A stretch of DNA of 52,749 nt from Alphaproteobacteria bacterium. GTDB lineage: Bacteria; Pseudomonadota; Alphaproteobacteria; Reyranellales; Reyranellaceae. Position numbers and translations under genes: made by a program. Positions 44,734 to 52,749 of the stretch are shown in pieces. The notes beneath the pieces were generated by a model. The model had not been told where the DNA came from, made no database searches, and saw only the letters and a program-made list of their open reading frames with translations. Every line of letters begins with the position of its first letter. The first letter of the stretch is position 1. The DNA lies in assembly GCA_947474005.1 (NCBI GenBank), contig CANJHI010000017.1:1-52749 (forward strand), in the 5' to 3' direction.

Positions 44734-46161
44734 TTAGTTCAAAAACTCGGCGATCACGAGATGGTTGTCCTTGGCCGGCCAAGTGCGGGTCGGGATCGTC
44801 TCGTTGTTGAACACAGCCATCACCGTGCGTGGCTGGGCGTCGAAGGCGAGCTTGCCGACGGAAGCGCCGGGCACGCCGTCGTTGATGCCGGGCGGCACCT
44901 TGCCGTCGAGCGAGAACTTGTCGCGGCCGACGCCGAAATAGCCGCGCGGCCGGCTGATGGCCACGATCGCGCCCGCGCCCTCGTCGCCCTTGCCGAACTG
45001 GGCGGGGCGCAGGTGAACCACGTCGCTGGAGCGCAGGAAGGGCGACCGGTAGGTGTGGGTCACCGGCTGCGCCGACATGCGCAGCACGAATTCGTAGTTC
45101 ATGTCGGAGCGTCCGACATAAGGGCCCCACATGCCGTCCTCGCCGGTCGTCTTGCGATGGACCGCGACGGAACTCTTGCGGTCGCCGGTCTTGGCGTCGA
45201 CCTCGAAGATCTCGACCTCGGCGCCCGCCACCGCGAGGTTGGTGTAGGCGCCCTCGGCGATGCCGGTGACCTTGCCGTTCAGCACCGGCAGCGGCTCCTG
45301 GGCGATGAACATGCTGGCCGGCGGCTTGCCCGTGATGTGCTCGTGCATGGCGGCGAAAGCGAGCTTGTGGAACGCCACCTCACGGTGGTCGAGACCGTCG
45401 AGGGTGACGTTCCGGGCACCGCGCAGCTCCGAGGCGTCATAGCCGACGCCGGTCGGCTTGCCCGGAGCGCCGACAAAGCGGCCGTCGGGCTGGGCATACT
45501 TGTCGTTCTTGTCGGAGCGGATCGCCATCATCTCGACACCGGCGATGAGGTCGTCCGATCCCGCATTGAGCCCCTTGAGGAACGGGAAGGCGCCGTTGAA
45601 TTCGCTGCCGGCAAGCAGCGTCTCGGAGATCACGATGCCCTTGTTCGGCGTACCGCAGAGCACGGCGTGGCTCACGAATTCGGCGCCGCCGCCGTTCTTC
45701 AGATAGTTGCGCACCGTGTTGCCGCCCCGCGACGAGGCCACGAGCGCCACCCGCCGGCGGCGCGTGGCGGCGCGGACCTGGGTGACGAAGGCCGCCAGCT
45801 CCTTCATCTGGTCGTCGGTCGAGGACCTGAACGGCTGCGGTTTGGAATCGTCGCTGCGGGCACTGGGATAGGCGAAGTCGATGGCGAAGAGCTGGTTGCG
45901 CCGATAGCCGTTGGCCTCGAAGCGCCAGATGTTGTTGATCCAGAGGGCGCTCGAATCGCCGTTGCCGTGCACGAACACGACGGGCGGCAGCCCTTGCTCG
46001 GCAGGCGGCGCCCGGCGCGGCCCCGTTGATGGCGGCGACGGCCGCGGCGGCGGTTGTTGCCCGAAGGCAAGCGCCGGCCACAGTGCCGCGGCACCGCCGA
46101 GCAACGCGCGTCGTCCGAGCGCCAAGCTCCTGATTTTGTCCCCCTCTGGCATTGGCGCCAT
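44734..46161 (-). CDS. Exported alpha/beta hydrolase, lipase/depolymerase-like
   Basis: A 475-aa protein with an exported N-terminus: LALGRRALLGGAAALWPAL contains a twin-Arg, cleavage near AFGQ. A Pro-rich linker follows (QPPPRPSPPSTGPRRAPPAE). The hydrolase core has PPVVFVHGNGDSSALW (oxyanion region) and VALVASSRGGNTVRNYL (nucleophile elbow). The C-terminal ~200 residues look beta-rich (VEIFEVDAKTGDRKSS, RPRGYFGVGRDKFSLDG) and may be an accessory domain. The family is often called alpha/beta hydrolase or lipase; no substrate can be named. ATG at 46161 or 46152. Neither has a good Shine-Dalgarno sequence. It is divergent from ogt, 37 bases away. Confidence 0.78.
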   Translation of the reverse strand: MAPMPEGDKIRSLALGRRALLGGAAALWPALAFGQQPPPRPSPPSTGPRRAPPAEQGLPPVVFVHGNGDSSALWINNIWRFEANGYRRNQLFAIDFAYPSARSDDSKPQPFRSSTDDQMKELAAFVTQVRAATRRRRVALVASSRGGNTVRNYLKNGGGAEFVSHAVLCGTPNKGIVISETLLAGSEFNGAFPFLKGLNAGSDDLIAGVEMMAIRSDKNDKYAQPDGRFVGAPGKPTGVGYDASELRGARNVTLDGLDHREVAFHKLAFAAMHEHITGKPPASMFIAQEPLPVLNGKVTGIAEGAYTNLAVAGAEVEIFEVDAKTGDRKSSVAVHRKTTGEDGMWGPYVGRSDMNYEFVLRMSAQPVTHTYRSPFLRSSDVVHLRPAQFGKGDEGAGAIVAISRPRGYFGVGRDKFSLDGKVPPGINDGVPGASVGKLAFDAQPRTVMAVFNNETIPTRTWPAKDNHLVIAEFLN

Positions 46162-46198
46162 GTTGGCAAATGCCGGGCGCCGACGCTACGCTTCCCGT

Positions 46199-46663
46199 AT
46201 GTCCATTTGTTACATTGAGAGCTCCGTCGGCCGTCTCGCGCTCGAAGCCGATGACGATTGCGTGACCTCGGTGCGTTGGGCAAGCCCGGGCGAGCGCGCA
46301 CGCCCGGCGGCGCCAAACCCGGTTCTGAAGGAAGCGACCCGCCAGCTCGACCGCTACTTCGGTCGCAAGCTGCATCGTTTCGACCTGCCGCTCGCCGCCC
46401 ACGGCACCGACCACCAGAAGCGGGTCTGGGCGATGATGCGCGAGATTCCGTTCGGCGAGACGGTGACCTATGGCGGCATGGCGATGGCACTGGGCTCGGG
46501 GCCGCGCGCCGTCGGCACGGCCTGCGGACGCAATCCCCTCCCCATCATCGTGCCGTGCCACCGCGTGCTGGCCAGTGGCGGCAAGGAAGGCGGCTATTCC
46601 GGCGGTCGCGGCCTGCCGACTAAGCACCAGCTTCTGGCGCTCGAAGGCGTCACCCTTCCCTAA
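46199..46663 (+). CDS. ogt: Methylated-DNA--protein-cysteine methyltransferase
   Basis: A 154-aa suicide repair enzyme that removes O6-methylguanine damage. The catalytic PCHR motif is IIVPCHRVLASGGKEGGYSG (C120). The helix-turn-helix region has QKRVWAMMREIPFGETVTYG and GPRAVGTACGRNPLP (the Arg finger). The N-terminal domain is short, as in Ogt. ATG at 46199. Located just before hemD on the same strand, 46 bases apart. Confidence 0.95.
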   Translation: MSICYIESSVGRLALEADDDCVTSVRWASPGERARPAAPNPVLKEATRQLDRYFGRKLHRFDLPLAAHGTDHQKRVWAMMREIPFGETVTYGGMAMALGSGPRAVGTACGRNPLPIIVPCHRVLASGGKEGGYSGGRGLPTKHQLLALEGVTLP

Positions 46664-46709: not shown

Positions 46710-47687
46710 ATGCGCGTACTGCTCACCCGACCCGAACGCGAGGCGGCCGCGCTGGCGACGGCGTTGATCGAACGCGGCCACGTGCCGGTCATCGCGCCGC
46801 TGTTCCGGCTGGAAATCCTGCGCCCGCCCCCGGCGTTCTTCACCGCTCTCGCGGCCTGCCAGGCCGTCCTGCTGACCAGCGCCAACGGCGCCCGGGCGCT
46901 GGCCGATGCCAGCGAGCAACGCGGCAAGCCCATCCTCGCCGTCGGCGATACGACCGCCTCGACGGCCGAGGGGCTGGGGTTCTCAGACGTCACCTCGGCA
47001 GCGGGCGACGGCGCCGCGCTGGCCGAGCAGGTGCGCCGCAGCCTCGATCCCAAGAAGGGATCGCTGGTCCATGTCTCGGGGGAGGACGTCGCGCTCGACC
47101 TCGTGGAAACGCTCGCGCCCGACGGTTTCGAGGTGCACCGCTTCGTGCTCTACGACGCCCGCGAGGAAAGCACGTTGCCGGAATCGGCGCGGGCGGCCGT
47201 GGCCGCCCGGGCGATCGACGCCGCGACGTTTTTTTCGCCGCGCGCGGCCACCACCTTTGCCAGGCTGGTCGGCGATGCCGGTTTGGCCGACGCCCTGCGG
47301 GGCGTTACCGCCATTGCCATCAGCCCTGCTGCCCTGGAACCCCTGGCGGCGTTGCCCTTCAAGGCAACCGTCGCGGCGGCGCGGCCCACCCGCCAGGCGG
47401 TGCTGGATGAGATCGACCGGCTGGCCGAAGCCGGCGTACAAGGAGCGCCGACCATGGGAACGCAGACGATGAGCGACACACCTTCTCCTGCGTCCACTGC
47501 CCCGCCCGCCCGCGAGGCACCACCGCCTCCCATGTCAGCTCCCCCCATGTCATCTCCCCAAGTCACGGTCCGGCGCGGTCTCGGCCTGTTCGGCGCCTTC
47601 ATCACCGGCATCGTCGCCGCCGTCCTCGTGCTGGCGGGCGCGGTGATCTCGCTGCCGTTCTGGCCCGGGGAAATTCGCGCGATGTAG
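46710..47687 (+). CDS. hemD: Uroporphyrinogen-III synthase HemD, running in frame into a HemX/mitofilin membrane anchor
   Basis: The first ~240 residues are HemD, which closes and inverts ring D to give uroporphyrinogen III. MRVLLTRPEREAAALATALI, LLTSANGARALAD, LAVGDTTASTAEGLGF, GSLVHVSGEDVALDL and TFFSPRAATTFARLV are the usual motifs. No stop follows: the frame continues through MGTQTMSDTPSPAS (~249), a Pro-rich stretch and one membrane helix, GLGLFGAFITGIVAAVLVLA (~295), ending at TAG 47685. The tail is the N-terminus expected for the downstream HemX/mitofilin-like gene, with AGGAG eight bases before an internal ATG at 47454. So this may be a fusion, or two overlapping genes in one frame. 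ATG at 46710 with GGAGAG. Confidence 0.88.
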   Translation: MRVLLTRPEREAAALATALIERGHVPVIAPLFRLEILRPPPAFFTALAACQAVLLTSANGARALADASEQRGKPILAVGDTTASTAEGLGFSDVTSAAGDGAALAEQVRRSLDPKKGSLVHVSGEDVALDLVETLAPDGFEVHRFVLYDAREESTLPESARAAVAARAIDAATFFSPRAATTFARLVGDAGLADALRGVTAIAISPAALEPLAALPFKATVAAARPTRQAVLDEIDRLAEAGVQGAPTMGTQTMSDTPSPASTAPPAREAPPPPMSAPPMSSPQVTVRRGLGLFGAFITGIVAAVLVLAGAVISLPFWPGEIRAM

Positions 47688-47702
47688 CGCGGCCAAGCTG
47701 CG

Positions 47703-48761
47703 GTGTCCGCGCCCACGCCGGCGATCGATCTGCAGGCCGTGCGCGCCGATGCCACCGCCGCGGCCAATGCAGCCGTCGAGGCCTCCCGGCGCGATCTCAC
47801 CGCGCGCATCGACGACCTCGAGAAGCGCGTGCGTGCAGCCTCCGCCGCGGCGGCGGAGCGTCCGGTCCCTGCCTCCGATCCCGCGATCGCCGAACTGCGC
47901 AGCAAGGTCGCGGCCCTCGAGAGCCAGGCGACCGCATCGCCAGCTCCCGCACCACCGGCTCCCGCATCAACAACCCCCGCGCCGGCAGCGGCGGCGCCTC
48001 CCGTGACGACCGGCGGTGACACCGAAAAGGATCTCGCCACCCTTCGTCTCGAGATCGCGACCCTGCGTTCGGCGCTACAAACGCTCGACCAGGCGATGGC
48101 CGGACAGAAGGACGAGACGACCCGCCAGCGCGAACAGGCCAAGGCGATGGCCGAGGCCATCGACAAGGCACGCGCCGAGGCCGGTGCCGTGGGCGCGGGC
48201 GAGAAGAAGGCGCTGGGTGCTGCGCGCGCCTCGGCGGTCGTCGGCGTTGCCGCACGGCTGAGCTCAGCCATCGAGTCGGGCCTGCCCTTCGCTCAGGAAC
48301 TGGGCCTGCTGGCTCCGCTGTCGCGCGACGATGGCAAGGGGGGCGACGCCAAGCTCGGCGAGATCACTGCCGCCCTGCAGCCCTACGCGCAGGCCGGGGT
48401 CGCCTCGCGCACGACGCTGGCGGCAAGCTTCCCCGCCGTGGCCAAGGCGGCGCTGGCCGACGACCTCGCCGACGATTCGTTTGGTGAGCGTGTGCTGGGC
48501 AAGATCAAGAGCATCGTCTCGCTGCGCCGGGTCGGTGCCGACGTGCCGGGCGACGCCGTCGACGCCAAGCTCGCGCGCGCTGAAGCGGCCCTCGACGGTG
48601 GCGACGTCGCCAAGGCGGTCGATCTCGTGAAGTCGCTGCCGCCGCAGACGGCCAAGGCGACGGCGGCATGGCTGGCGCGCGCCGAGGCTCATCTGGCGGC
48701 CAAGCGCGCCGTCGACCAGCTCGCGACCTACGCCGTCACCCTGCTCGGCGCCGCACGGTAA
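47703..48761 (+). CDS. HemX/mitofilin-like coiled-coil protein, anchor separated by an in-frame TAG
   Basis: A 352-aa product from GTG at 47703. It has a long Ala-rich coiled coil (~25-165, e.g. DLEKRVRAASAAAAE and LRLEIATLRSALQTLDQAMA) and a helical C-terminal domain (GVAARLSSAIESGLPFAQEL, VVGVAARL, LVKSLPPQTAKATAAWLARA) matching COG4223. Such proteins are normally single-pass with the anchor N-terminal to the coil. Here the anchor sits in the HemD frame, and TAG 47685-47687 plus five sense codons lie between, all in one frame. No Shine-Dalgarno sequence precedes the GTG. It may be a split or broken gene, a readthrough product, or a sequencing error. hemY follows after 6 bases. Confidence 0.75.
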   Translation: MSAPTPAIDLQAVRADATAAANAAVEASRRDLTARIDDLEKRVRAASAAAAERPVPASDPAIAELRSKVAALESQATASPAPAPPAPASTTPAPAAAAPPVTTGGDTEKDLATLRLEIATLRSALQTLDQAMAGQKDETTRQREQAKAMAEAIDKARAEAGAVGAGEKKALGAARASAVVGVAARLSSAIESGLPFAQELGLLAPLSRDDGKGGDAKLGEITAALQPYAQAGVASRTTLAASFPAVAKAALADDLADDSFGERVLGKIKSIVSLRRVGADVPGDAVDAKLARAEAALDGGDVAKAVDLVKSLPPQTAKATAAWLARAEAHLAAKRAVDQLATYAVTLLGAAR

Positions 48762-48767
48762 CCGGCG

Positions 48768-50138
48768 ATGACCACGCTGCGCATCCTGATCTGGTTCGTC
48801 GTCGCTGCCGCCGCAATGCTGGGCGCGGTGTGGCTGGCCGAACGGCCGGGCACGCTCACCGCCGAATGGCAGGGCTGGCGGCTCGACACCAATGTCGGCG
48901 TGGTGGTGATCGTCATCGTCGTGCTGATCCTGCTCGGCGTCGCGGCATGGCTGCTGTGGCGCTGGATCTCGGGCGCGCCGGGCGCGCTGCTCGAAGGCTG
49001 GGGCGACAGTCGGCGCCGGCGCGGCTACCGCGAACTGACCCAGGGGCTGGCCGCGGTCGCCGCCGGCGATGGCGCCGAGGCGCAGAAGCACGCGCGCAAG
49101 GCCGAGCAGCTTCTGGCCGAGCCGGCCCTCACGCTGTTGCTGTCGGCGCAGGCGGCCCAGCTCACGGGCGATCGCGACGGCGCCAGGCGGGCGTTCGACG
49201 CCATGCTCAAGGACCAGCAGATGGCCTTCCTCGGCCTGCGCGGATTGATCGGCCAGTCGCTGCGCGACGGCGACCAGATGACGGCGCTGGGCTATGCCGA
49301 GCGCGCCTTCGCGCTCCGGCCGCAGACGCCGTGGGTGGTGCATTCGCTGTTCGACATGCAGGCCCAGGCCGGCCACTGGAAAGCGGCCCAGGACACGCTC
49401 GATGCGGGCATGCGCCGCAAGGTCATCGCCGCCGACAAGGGCCGCACGCTGAAGGCGCTGTTGCTGGTCGAGCGCAGCCGCGAGGCCGAGCGCGCCGGCC
49501 GCGACACCGACGCCCAGGCGCTGGCGCGTGAGGCTTTTGGCCTGGCGCCTGAGCGTATCGTGGCGACCGGCCGCCTGGCCGAGCTGCAGATCAAGGCGGG
49601 CGATACCAAGCGCGCGGCCAAGACGATCGAGCGCGGCTGGGCCGTGGCGCCGCATCCCGATCTCGCCGACCTCTATCTCAAGGCTTCGGGCGAGTCCGAT
49701 CCGCTGAAGCGCGTCGGCATCATGCGGCGGCTGGCGGGCTGCAACCCCGACGACATCGAAAGCCACCTGGCCCTCGCCAAGGCATCGCTCGACGCCGGCC
49801 TGTGGGGCGAGGCGCGGCGCCAGCTCGAGACGGCGGGCGGCACCTCGCCGCCGGTCCGCGTCTGCCGCCTGATGGCCGAGGTCGAGGAACGTGCCAACGT
49901 CGACCCGGCCAAGGTGCATGAATGGCTGGCCCGCGCCGCCGTGGCGCCGGCCGACCGCTCGTGGTCCTGCACCGCCTGCGGCGCCCACCATGAGACGTGG
50001 CGCTCGGTCTGCGAGAGCTGCAGTGCCTTCGGCACGTTGCAGTGGCGCGCGCCCGGCACCTTTGGCCAGATCCTGCCGCCCGACCTGCAGGCCGAACTGC
50101 GGGGCACCACCGCGCTGCCCTCGACCACAGGAGCCTGA
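48768..50138 (+). CDS. hemY: HemY-like inner-membrane TPR protein
   Basis: A 456-aa protein. Two membrane segments at the N-terminus (ILIWFVVAAAAMLGAVWLAE and VVVIVIVVLILLGVAAWLLW, with WQGWRLDTNVG between) define the HemY_N domain. Then about eight TPR-like helices (GYRELTQGLAAVAAGDGAEA, VVHSLFDMQAQAGHWKAAQD). The C-terminus has a zinc-ribbon-like CTACGAHHETWRSVCESC, common in alphaproteobacterial HemY. The role in haem synthesis is by neighbourhood; no enzymatic activity is known. Third gene of hemD-hemX-hemY. ATG at 48768. Confidence 0.93.
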   Translation: MTTLRILIWFVVAAAAMLGAVWLAERPGTLTAEWQGWRLDTNVGVVVIVIVVLILLGVAAWLLWRWISGAPGALLEGWGDSRRRRGYRELTQGLAAVAAGDGAEAQKHARKAEQLLAEPALTLLLSAQAAQLTGDRDGARRAFDAMLKDQQMAFLGLRGLIGQSLRDGDQMTALGYAERAFALRPQTPWVVHSLFDMQAQAGHWKAAQDTLDAGMRRKVIAADKGRTLKALLLVERSREAERAGRDTDAQALAREAFGLAPERIVATGRLAELQIKAGDTKRAAKTIERGWAVAPHPDLADLYLKASGESDPLKRVGIMRRLAGCNPDDIESHLALAKASLDAGLWGEARRQLETAGGTSPPVRVCRLMAEVEERANVDPAKVHEWLARAAVAPADRSWSCTACGAHHETWRSVCESCSAFGTLQWRAPGTFGQILPPDLQAELRGTTALPSTTGA

Positions 50139-51273: not shown

Positions 51274-52749
51274 CTACGACTCCGGTAACCGCTGGCGCAG
51301 CGCGTAGAGGGCCTCGAGTGCCTCGCGCGGCGAGAGTTCGTCGGGGTTGATCTCGGCCAGGGCCTTCTCGACTTCCGACTCCTTCGTCTTCGCCGTGCCG
51401 CTCGCGGGACGCGCGGGGGCGGCGGCGAAGAGGGGCAGGTCGTCGGCCAGACGCGTGACCGCGCTGGACTGGTCGCCCTTCTCCAGCACCGCCAGGACTT
51501 CCTCGGCGCGCGACACGACGGCGGCCGGAAGGCCGGCGAGTTGGGCCACGTGGATGCCGTAGGAGCGGTCGGCGGCGCCGGGCGCGACCTCGTGCAGGAA
51601 CACGACCTCGTTCTGCCATTCCTTGACGCGCATCGTGTAGGGGGCCAGCGCGTCGAGGCGTTCCCTGAGCGCTCCCAGCTCGTGATAGTGCGTGGCGAAC
51701 AGCGCGCGGCATCTGTTGACGTCGTGCAGATGTTCGAGCGTCGCCCAGGCGATGGACAGGCCGTCGAAGGTGGCGGTGCCGCGGCCGATCTCGTCGAGGA
51801 TGACCAGGCTCCGCGAAGTCGCCTGGTTCAGGATGGCCGCGGTCTCGACCATCTCGACCATGAAGGTCGAGCGACCGCGCGCCAGGTCGTCGGCGGCACC
51901 GACGCGGCTGAACAGGCGGTCGACGATGCCGATGGTCGCGGCCTTGGCCGGCACGAAGGCGCCGGCCTGGGCCATCACCGCGATCAGGGCGTTCTGGCGC
52001 AGGAAGGTCGATTTGCCGGCCATGTTGGGGCCGGTCAGCAGCCACAGCCGGCGCTCGGTGCCGAGGTAGCAGTCGTTGGGCACGAAGCCTGCGCCGTTCT
52101 GGCGGGCCAGCGCCGCCTCGACAACGGGGTGGCGGCCGCCCTCGATCGAGAAGGCCGGATCGTCAGTCAGCGTCGGCCGCACATGGTTGCTGCTGGCCGC
52201 CAGTTCGGCCAGCGCCGAAGCGACGTCGAGCCATGCCAGAGCGCGGCCGGCCGCCGCGATCGACGCCGACACCGCCATCACCTTGGCGACCAGCTCCTCG
52301 AATACGGCGAGCTCCAGCGCCAGCGCCTGGTCGGCGGCGCGGCCGATGCGGGTTTCGAGATCGGCCAGCTCCGCCGTGCTGAAGCGCGTCGCGTTCGACA
52401 TGGACTGCCGCCGCGTGAAGCCCAGCGCCGCCAGGTCGAGCTTGTCGGCGTGCGTCGCCGTCACCTCGATATGGTAACCGATCATGTTGTTGTGCCGGAT
52501 CTTGAGCGACGGCACGCCGCTCGCCGTCCGGTACTTGGCTTCGAGGCCCGCCACCGTCTTGCGGCTGTCGTCGCGCAGGGTGCGCTGCTCGTCCAGTTCT
52601 GGGCGGTAGCCTTGCCGCACGAAGCCGCCGTCGCGCACCAGCAGCGGCGGCTCGTCGGCCAGCGCCTCGGCCAGTGCCGCCACGGTGGCGCCGTGGTCGG
52701 AGCAGCACATCACGATTTCGGCGAGAGGCGCGGGCGGTGGCAGCAACGC
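51274..52749 (-). CDS. mutS: DNA mismatch repair protein MutS, C-terminal part (cut by window edge)
   Basis: About 490 residues of the C-terminal half are visible; the gene continues past 52749. MutS recognises mismatches and recruits MutL. The lever/core part has [20 protein letters not shown] and [20 protein letters not shown]. The ATPase has Walker [17 protein letters not shown], Walker [30 protein letters not shown] and the HTH-type end region [20 protein letters not shown]. The C-terminal tail before the stop is [20 protein letters not shown]. Convergent with the metE-like gene across the inverted repeat. Confidence 0.97.

Follow-up and report, generated by a model that had tools for sequence, protein, structure and literature searches.

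The genes under study lie on the forward strand of a 52,749-nucleotide contig, the whole of which constitutes the window analyzed here, from a genome of the genus Reyranella whose assembly totals 5.68 Mb, spread over 316 contigs, at 93.83% completeness. Directly before hemD stands a gene for an O6-methylguanine DNA methyltransferase (45911-46663), and after it come a mitofilin gene and then a hemY-like gene (48768-50138), the product of which carries HemY_N and TPR domains (PF07219, E = 1.3e-25). A mutS gene on the reverse strand (51274-52749) is cut by the end of the contig.

The frame that contains hemD opens at 46467, and the HemD start was placed at the ATG at 46710, as in the collection proteins P0240 and P0001 described below. 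The uroporphyrinogen-III synthase part of the frame (46710-47402) matches HEM4 (PF02602) over residues 14-231, with an E-value of 5.9e-38 and a score of 130.7 bits against a cut-off of 27.5. As the initial annotation had described, HemD has no stop codon of its own and runs in frame into a membrane anchor, and the first stop in the frame is the TAG at 47685-47687. The anchor (47598-47654), whose sequence is kept in relatives, is the most hydrophobic 19-residue stretch, FITGIVAAVLVLAGAVISL (residues 297-315, mean hydropathy 2.6); it lies just before the TAG and is the sole strong hydrophobic stretch. Past the TAG the same frame stays open (47688-48758), with no second stop in the body, up to the TAA at 48759-48761. 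The last part of this predicted coiled-coil body matches Mitofilin (PF09731) with an E-value of 7e-9 and a score of 35.6 bits against a cut-off of 27.4. A GTG at 47703 lies six codons past the TAG; all codons between the two are sense codons, and no AGGAG-like sequence was found within the 20 bases before the GTG, in agreement with the annotation. The N-terminal anchor and the mitofilin body are joined in one chain in P0001 and in the relatives that cover this stretch, and in this genome they are separated by the TAG.

The annotation had proposed that the junction be compared in close relatives. A match was found in 36 of 37 genomes labelled as the same genus, the source genome included, which left 35 relatives; records of Reyranella massiliensis and Reyranella aquatilis KCTC 52223 are among the genomes with this label. 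In 32 of the 35 a single open frame of 602-860 amino acids spans HemD and mitofilin, and within these 32 frames HemD is nearly whole in 31 and cut by a contig end in one. The remaining three comprise two loci at contig edges (G029 and G018) and one with a frame break further down (G019). Sixteen further loci came only from a collection of named genomes and lack the same-genus label, giving 51 non-redundant loci, of which 47 carry HemD and the body in one frame. In the named collection, 17 of 40 loci are named Reyranella, and other names, such as Rhizobium, Asaia and Enhydrobacter, were taken as misnaming. Loci outside the genus (L042-L048), L049, L051 and L052 (no tblastn match), and duplicate records were left out of the column counts.

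The codon at the position of the TAG was TGG (Trp) in 47 of the 48 loci that cover it, ATG in one, and a stop in none. Same-genus loci contributed 32 TGG codons and the ATG, and all 15 others had TGG. The single covering relative without Trp at this position, L033, encodes Met. Three of the 51 loci do not cover the position; one of them, G019, has Trp there in the protein alignment, and L049 is another contig piece of G018. The frame shift in G019 (L013, L050 and L066) lies in a later part of the body, at or close to its Ala/Pro-rich part and away from the TAG position; this break is independent of the TAG or is an assembly fault of its own.

Protein collections gave the same picture. Trp occupies the position in 120 of 120 full-length proteins among the matches listed (120 of 755), a count that leans towards full-length forms because the search accepted only lengths between 0.55 and 1.75 times that of the query. 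Short forms were covered by a separate search, and among the matches listed (120 of 132) none of the other 119 short HemD proteins ends at this position. The 325-residue truncated product, P0240, forms a cluster of one that occurs only on this contig. A near-identical allele with a sense codon was found at the protein level: P0001 (683 residues) is identical to the frame of this genome at 682 of them, the one exception being a Trp where the TAG stands. P0001 represents an eight-member cluster, of which only this representative was compared; the cluster occurs on three contigs, the longest of 31,845 bases, so it is not the contig that carries the TAG and was taken to come from elsewhere.

The TGG column, P0001 and the single occurrence of P0240 together indicate that, as far as the searches reached, no other assembly shares the stop. 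It is almost certainly private whether it arose as a recent nonsense change or as a base error, the two origins that the annotation had put forward together and that the unbroken frames of the relatives support. The annotation had suggested CAG as the codon from which the TAG arose; the Trp codons of the relatives and the Trp residues of the listed proteins rule this out. What did stand was the observation that a single stop splits the anchor from the coil.

A different reading takes the body to be a separate gene that starts at the GTG at 47703 and encodes a soluble coiled-coil protein, so that the locus would have a real two-gene layout. The in-frame GTG shortly after the stop and the intact frame of the body are in keeping with this, but the GTG lacks a Shine-Dalgarno sequence, the residue at its position is not conserved in relatives, and none of the 48 covering loci has a stop before that position. 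Relatives instead keep a start at an inner ATG upstream of the anchor. On the comparison of these loci, a conserved layout of two genes, the second starting at 47703, was rejected, and the same comparison refutes the possibility, raised in the annotation, that relatives also carry separate hemD and hemX genes with a conserved stop and start at this place. We consider a separate body gene in this genome highly improbable.

Amber readthrough, by which a suppressor tRNA or a leaky context would allow the TAG to be translated and a full-length HemD-anchor-mitofilin protein to be made, had also been suggested, and the open and constrained frame of the body is in its favour. A stop conserved among relatives, which marks stop-codon readthrough, was seen in none of the 48 covering loci. 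The gene for release factor RF1 (prfA) is present, with a score above the family cut-off, and no CUA anticodon was found in the 36 of 37 tRNA places that ARAGORN read in this 93.83% complete genome. Both tRNA-Trp and tRNA-Ile are missing from the ARAGORN list; this list is incomplete, so a changed tRNA-Trp is possible in the missing part. A selenocysteine tRNA with the anticodon tca was read by ARAGORN at L152 (contig C176 of this genome, G000). A scan of 452,749 bases (this contig and 20 further stretches) returned 12 stops before and after which the same frame carries coding signal, three of them TAG, which by eye look like ordinary ends of tandem genes; the scan is weak, in that it missed the TAG at 47685-47687. 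On the evidence of RF1, the tRNAs and these sampled gene ends, amber recoding of the genome was rejected. Taken with the intact alleles, the same results make readthrough at this one codon very unlikely.

Constraint on the body was assessed by dN/dS. In comparison with L053, the nearest full-length relative, the ratio was 0.15 for the body, 0.20 for HemD and 0.49 for the linker and anchor. Body ratios against L054, L008 and L007 were 0.26, 0.16 and 0.16, respectively, and two pairs that do not involve this genome gave 0.13-0.27 for HemD and the body. To judge by these ratios, the body is under constraint like that in its relatives and shows no loosening or decay, which means that the stop is either very recent or not real.

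The explanation of the TAG is ordinary: either a nonsense change private to this assembly or a base error interrupts a fused gene found intact elsewhere. A base error, or a base from a minority strain that entered the consensus of a fragmented assembly, would leave the organism with an intact fused gene, and an error accounts for the same facts as a real mutation. The assembly is in 316 contigs and is incomplete, P0001 has Trp at the position and is otherwise identical, the truncated form was seen once, on this contig only, and no relaxed constraint is visible in the body. A nonsense codon as the sole amino-acid difference from P0001 in a constrained gene is a little more to be expected of an error than of drift. 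The scan of 453 kb found no other clearly broken gene in this genome, which also counts against a real mutation, though the scan missed the TAG itself. Against an error, nothing else in the gene looks damaged. The contig and the genome assembly agree at the TAG, but they derive from the same data and form no independent check. We regard an error or a minority-strain base as a serious possibility at below even odds.

We lean slightly towards a real mutation, since natural strains often carry recent nonsense changes and a loss of Mic60 is tolerable; the probability of a recent, private nonsense change in the living strain, located at the conserved Trp codon that follows the anchor, we put at roughly 0.55. 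Deletion of Mic60 reduces growth under conditions that need intracytoplasmic membranes, according to a review (PMC12136173). A second mitofilin copy, which might have made the loss harmless, was dismissed, as the genome (G000) contains one match only.

If a nonsense change in the strain is the correct reading, it would have struck a gene in which hemD and a Mic60-type mitofilin gene form, in Reyranella, one continuous reading frame, at the conserved Trp codon just past the anchor. Translation from the outer start would then yield HemD with a C-terminal anchor (325 amino acids), and translation from an inner start would yield no more than the anchor peptide. The cell would have no coiled-coil and mitofilin body, or a small amount of it through weak reinitiation. 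Heme synthesis should persist because the HemD domain is complete.

The fused frame itself was compared at the junction between HemD and the anchor part. The stretch from the conserved DEIDRL motif to the inner ATG has nine different lengths, from 15 to 31 codons, among 47 loci, and none of these loci has an in-frame stop in it; stops occur in the two other frames in 23 and 19 loci. The absence of an in-frame stop despite the varied length indicates that the open frame is maintained and speaks for a real fusion protein. Two loci from other families of the class (L042 and L043) are built differently: hemD has its own stop and mitofilin is a separate gene after it; the open reading frame before hemD in these two loci resembles hemC, as read by eye from its translation. 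Four further loci outside the genus (L044, L045, L047 and L048) contain frames with Mitofilin and without HEM4. The fusion is probably a Reyranella trait that arose through loss of the hemD stop. A search of the open-licence literature found no published report of a HemD-mitofilin fusion.

All 47 covering loci keep the inner ATG, which lies at 47469-47471 in this genome (MSDTP...), and the residue is Met in 120 of 120 proteins among the matches listed (120 of 755). In 36 of the 47 loci this ATG has a Shine-Dalgarno-like motif 6-10 bases upstream, counts in which related loci are not independent; for the other internal Met codons in these genes the figure is 4 of 156, a control restricted to loci with a recognised HemD start. 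The motif is written in codons that the genes seldom use elsewhere: GTA makes up 2.7% of their Val codons and 37 of 47 codons at its place in the motif, and GGA makes up 4.3% of their Gly codons and 38 of 48 codons at its own place. The motif is missing in 11 of the 47 loci, the near relatives L053 and L054 among them.

In this genome five extra codons, from the ATG at 47454 onward, stand before the conserved ATG. The sequence AAGGAG (47440-47445), which the initial annotation did not mention, lies 8 bases before the ATG at 47454-47456, making this a good and probable internal start for the anchor-mitofilin part. AAGGAG lies 23 bases before the ATG at 47469, too far for the 6-10-base motif rule. 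At the column of the ATG at 47454, Met is found in 11 of 120 proteins among the matches listed (120 of 755) and a gap in the other 109.

The kept inner ATG and its Shine-Dalgarno-like motif suggest, at the level of sequence, that two products may be made from one gene. In Reyranella these would be a long form of about 680 amino acids, in which mitofilin ties HemD to the membrane, and a short form of about 430 amino acids that begins at the inner start and consists of mitofilin without HemD, an arrangement to which we give just short of an even chance. It would mean that a heme enzyme is physically built onto the bacterial homologue of a cristae organiser. Should the TAG be real, the strain would be a natural truncation in which HemD is kept on its anchor and the mitofilin body is missing. 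The stop is of small weight by itself and should not be taken as recoding. Its setting is weightier, as the genus appears to join HemD to the alphaproteobacterial Mic60 homologue and to keep an inner start site. A fusion with an inner start would allow a direct test of coupling between heme synthesis and the shaping of the inner membrane.

As a broken gene, the locus resembles ordinary nonsense alleles, or recent pseudogenes, in that an otherwise intact and constrained gene has a single stop, which the relatives examined lack; its one known difference from them is that the HemD half upstream stays complete. A fusion of HemD to a membrane protein is represented by the NCBIfam model NF005411 (fused uroporphyrinogen-III synthase HemD/membrane protein HemX), which, by its name, likewise describes a single chain with HemD ahead of a membrane-anchored protein. 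Separate scans of the HemD-anchor part and of the body were run with this model. The HemD part reached only 13.6 bits where the cut-off is 414, and no match to the body came up to an E-value of 0.1; the second half here matches Pfam Mitofilin instead. The Reyranella fusion may work like a HemD/HemX fusion, but it is not a member of the NF005411 family. Bacterial Mic60 is treated in PMC12136173 and PMC9764997, and PMC7641849 describes the HemC-HemD-IMMP-HemY order in alphaproteobacteria and its tie to mitofilin. The gene studied here shares with these alphaproteobacterial mitofilins (PF09731) the Mitofilin domain, the one anchor and the place between hemD and hemY. Unlike them, it shares one reading frame with HemD in Reyranella, and in this genome it is also cut by the TAG.
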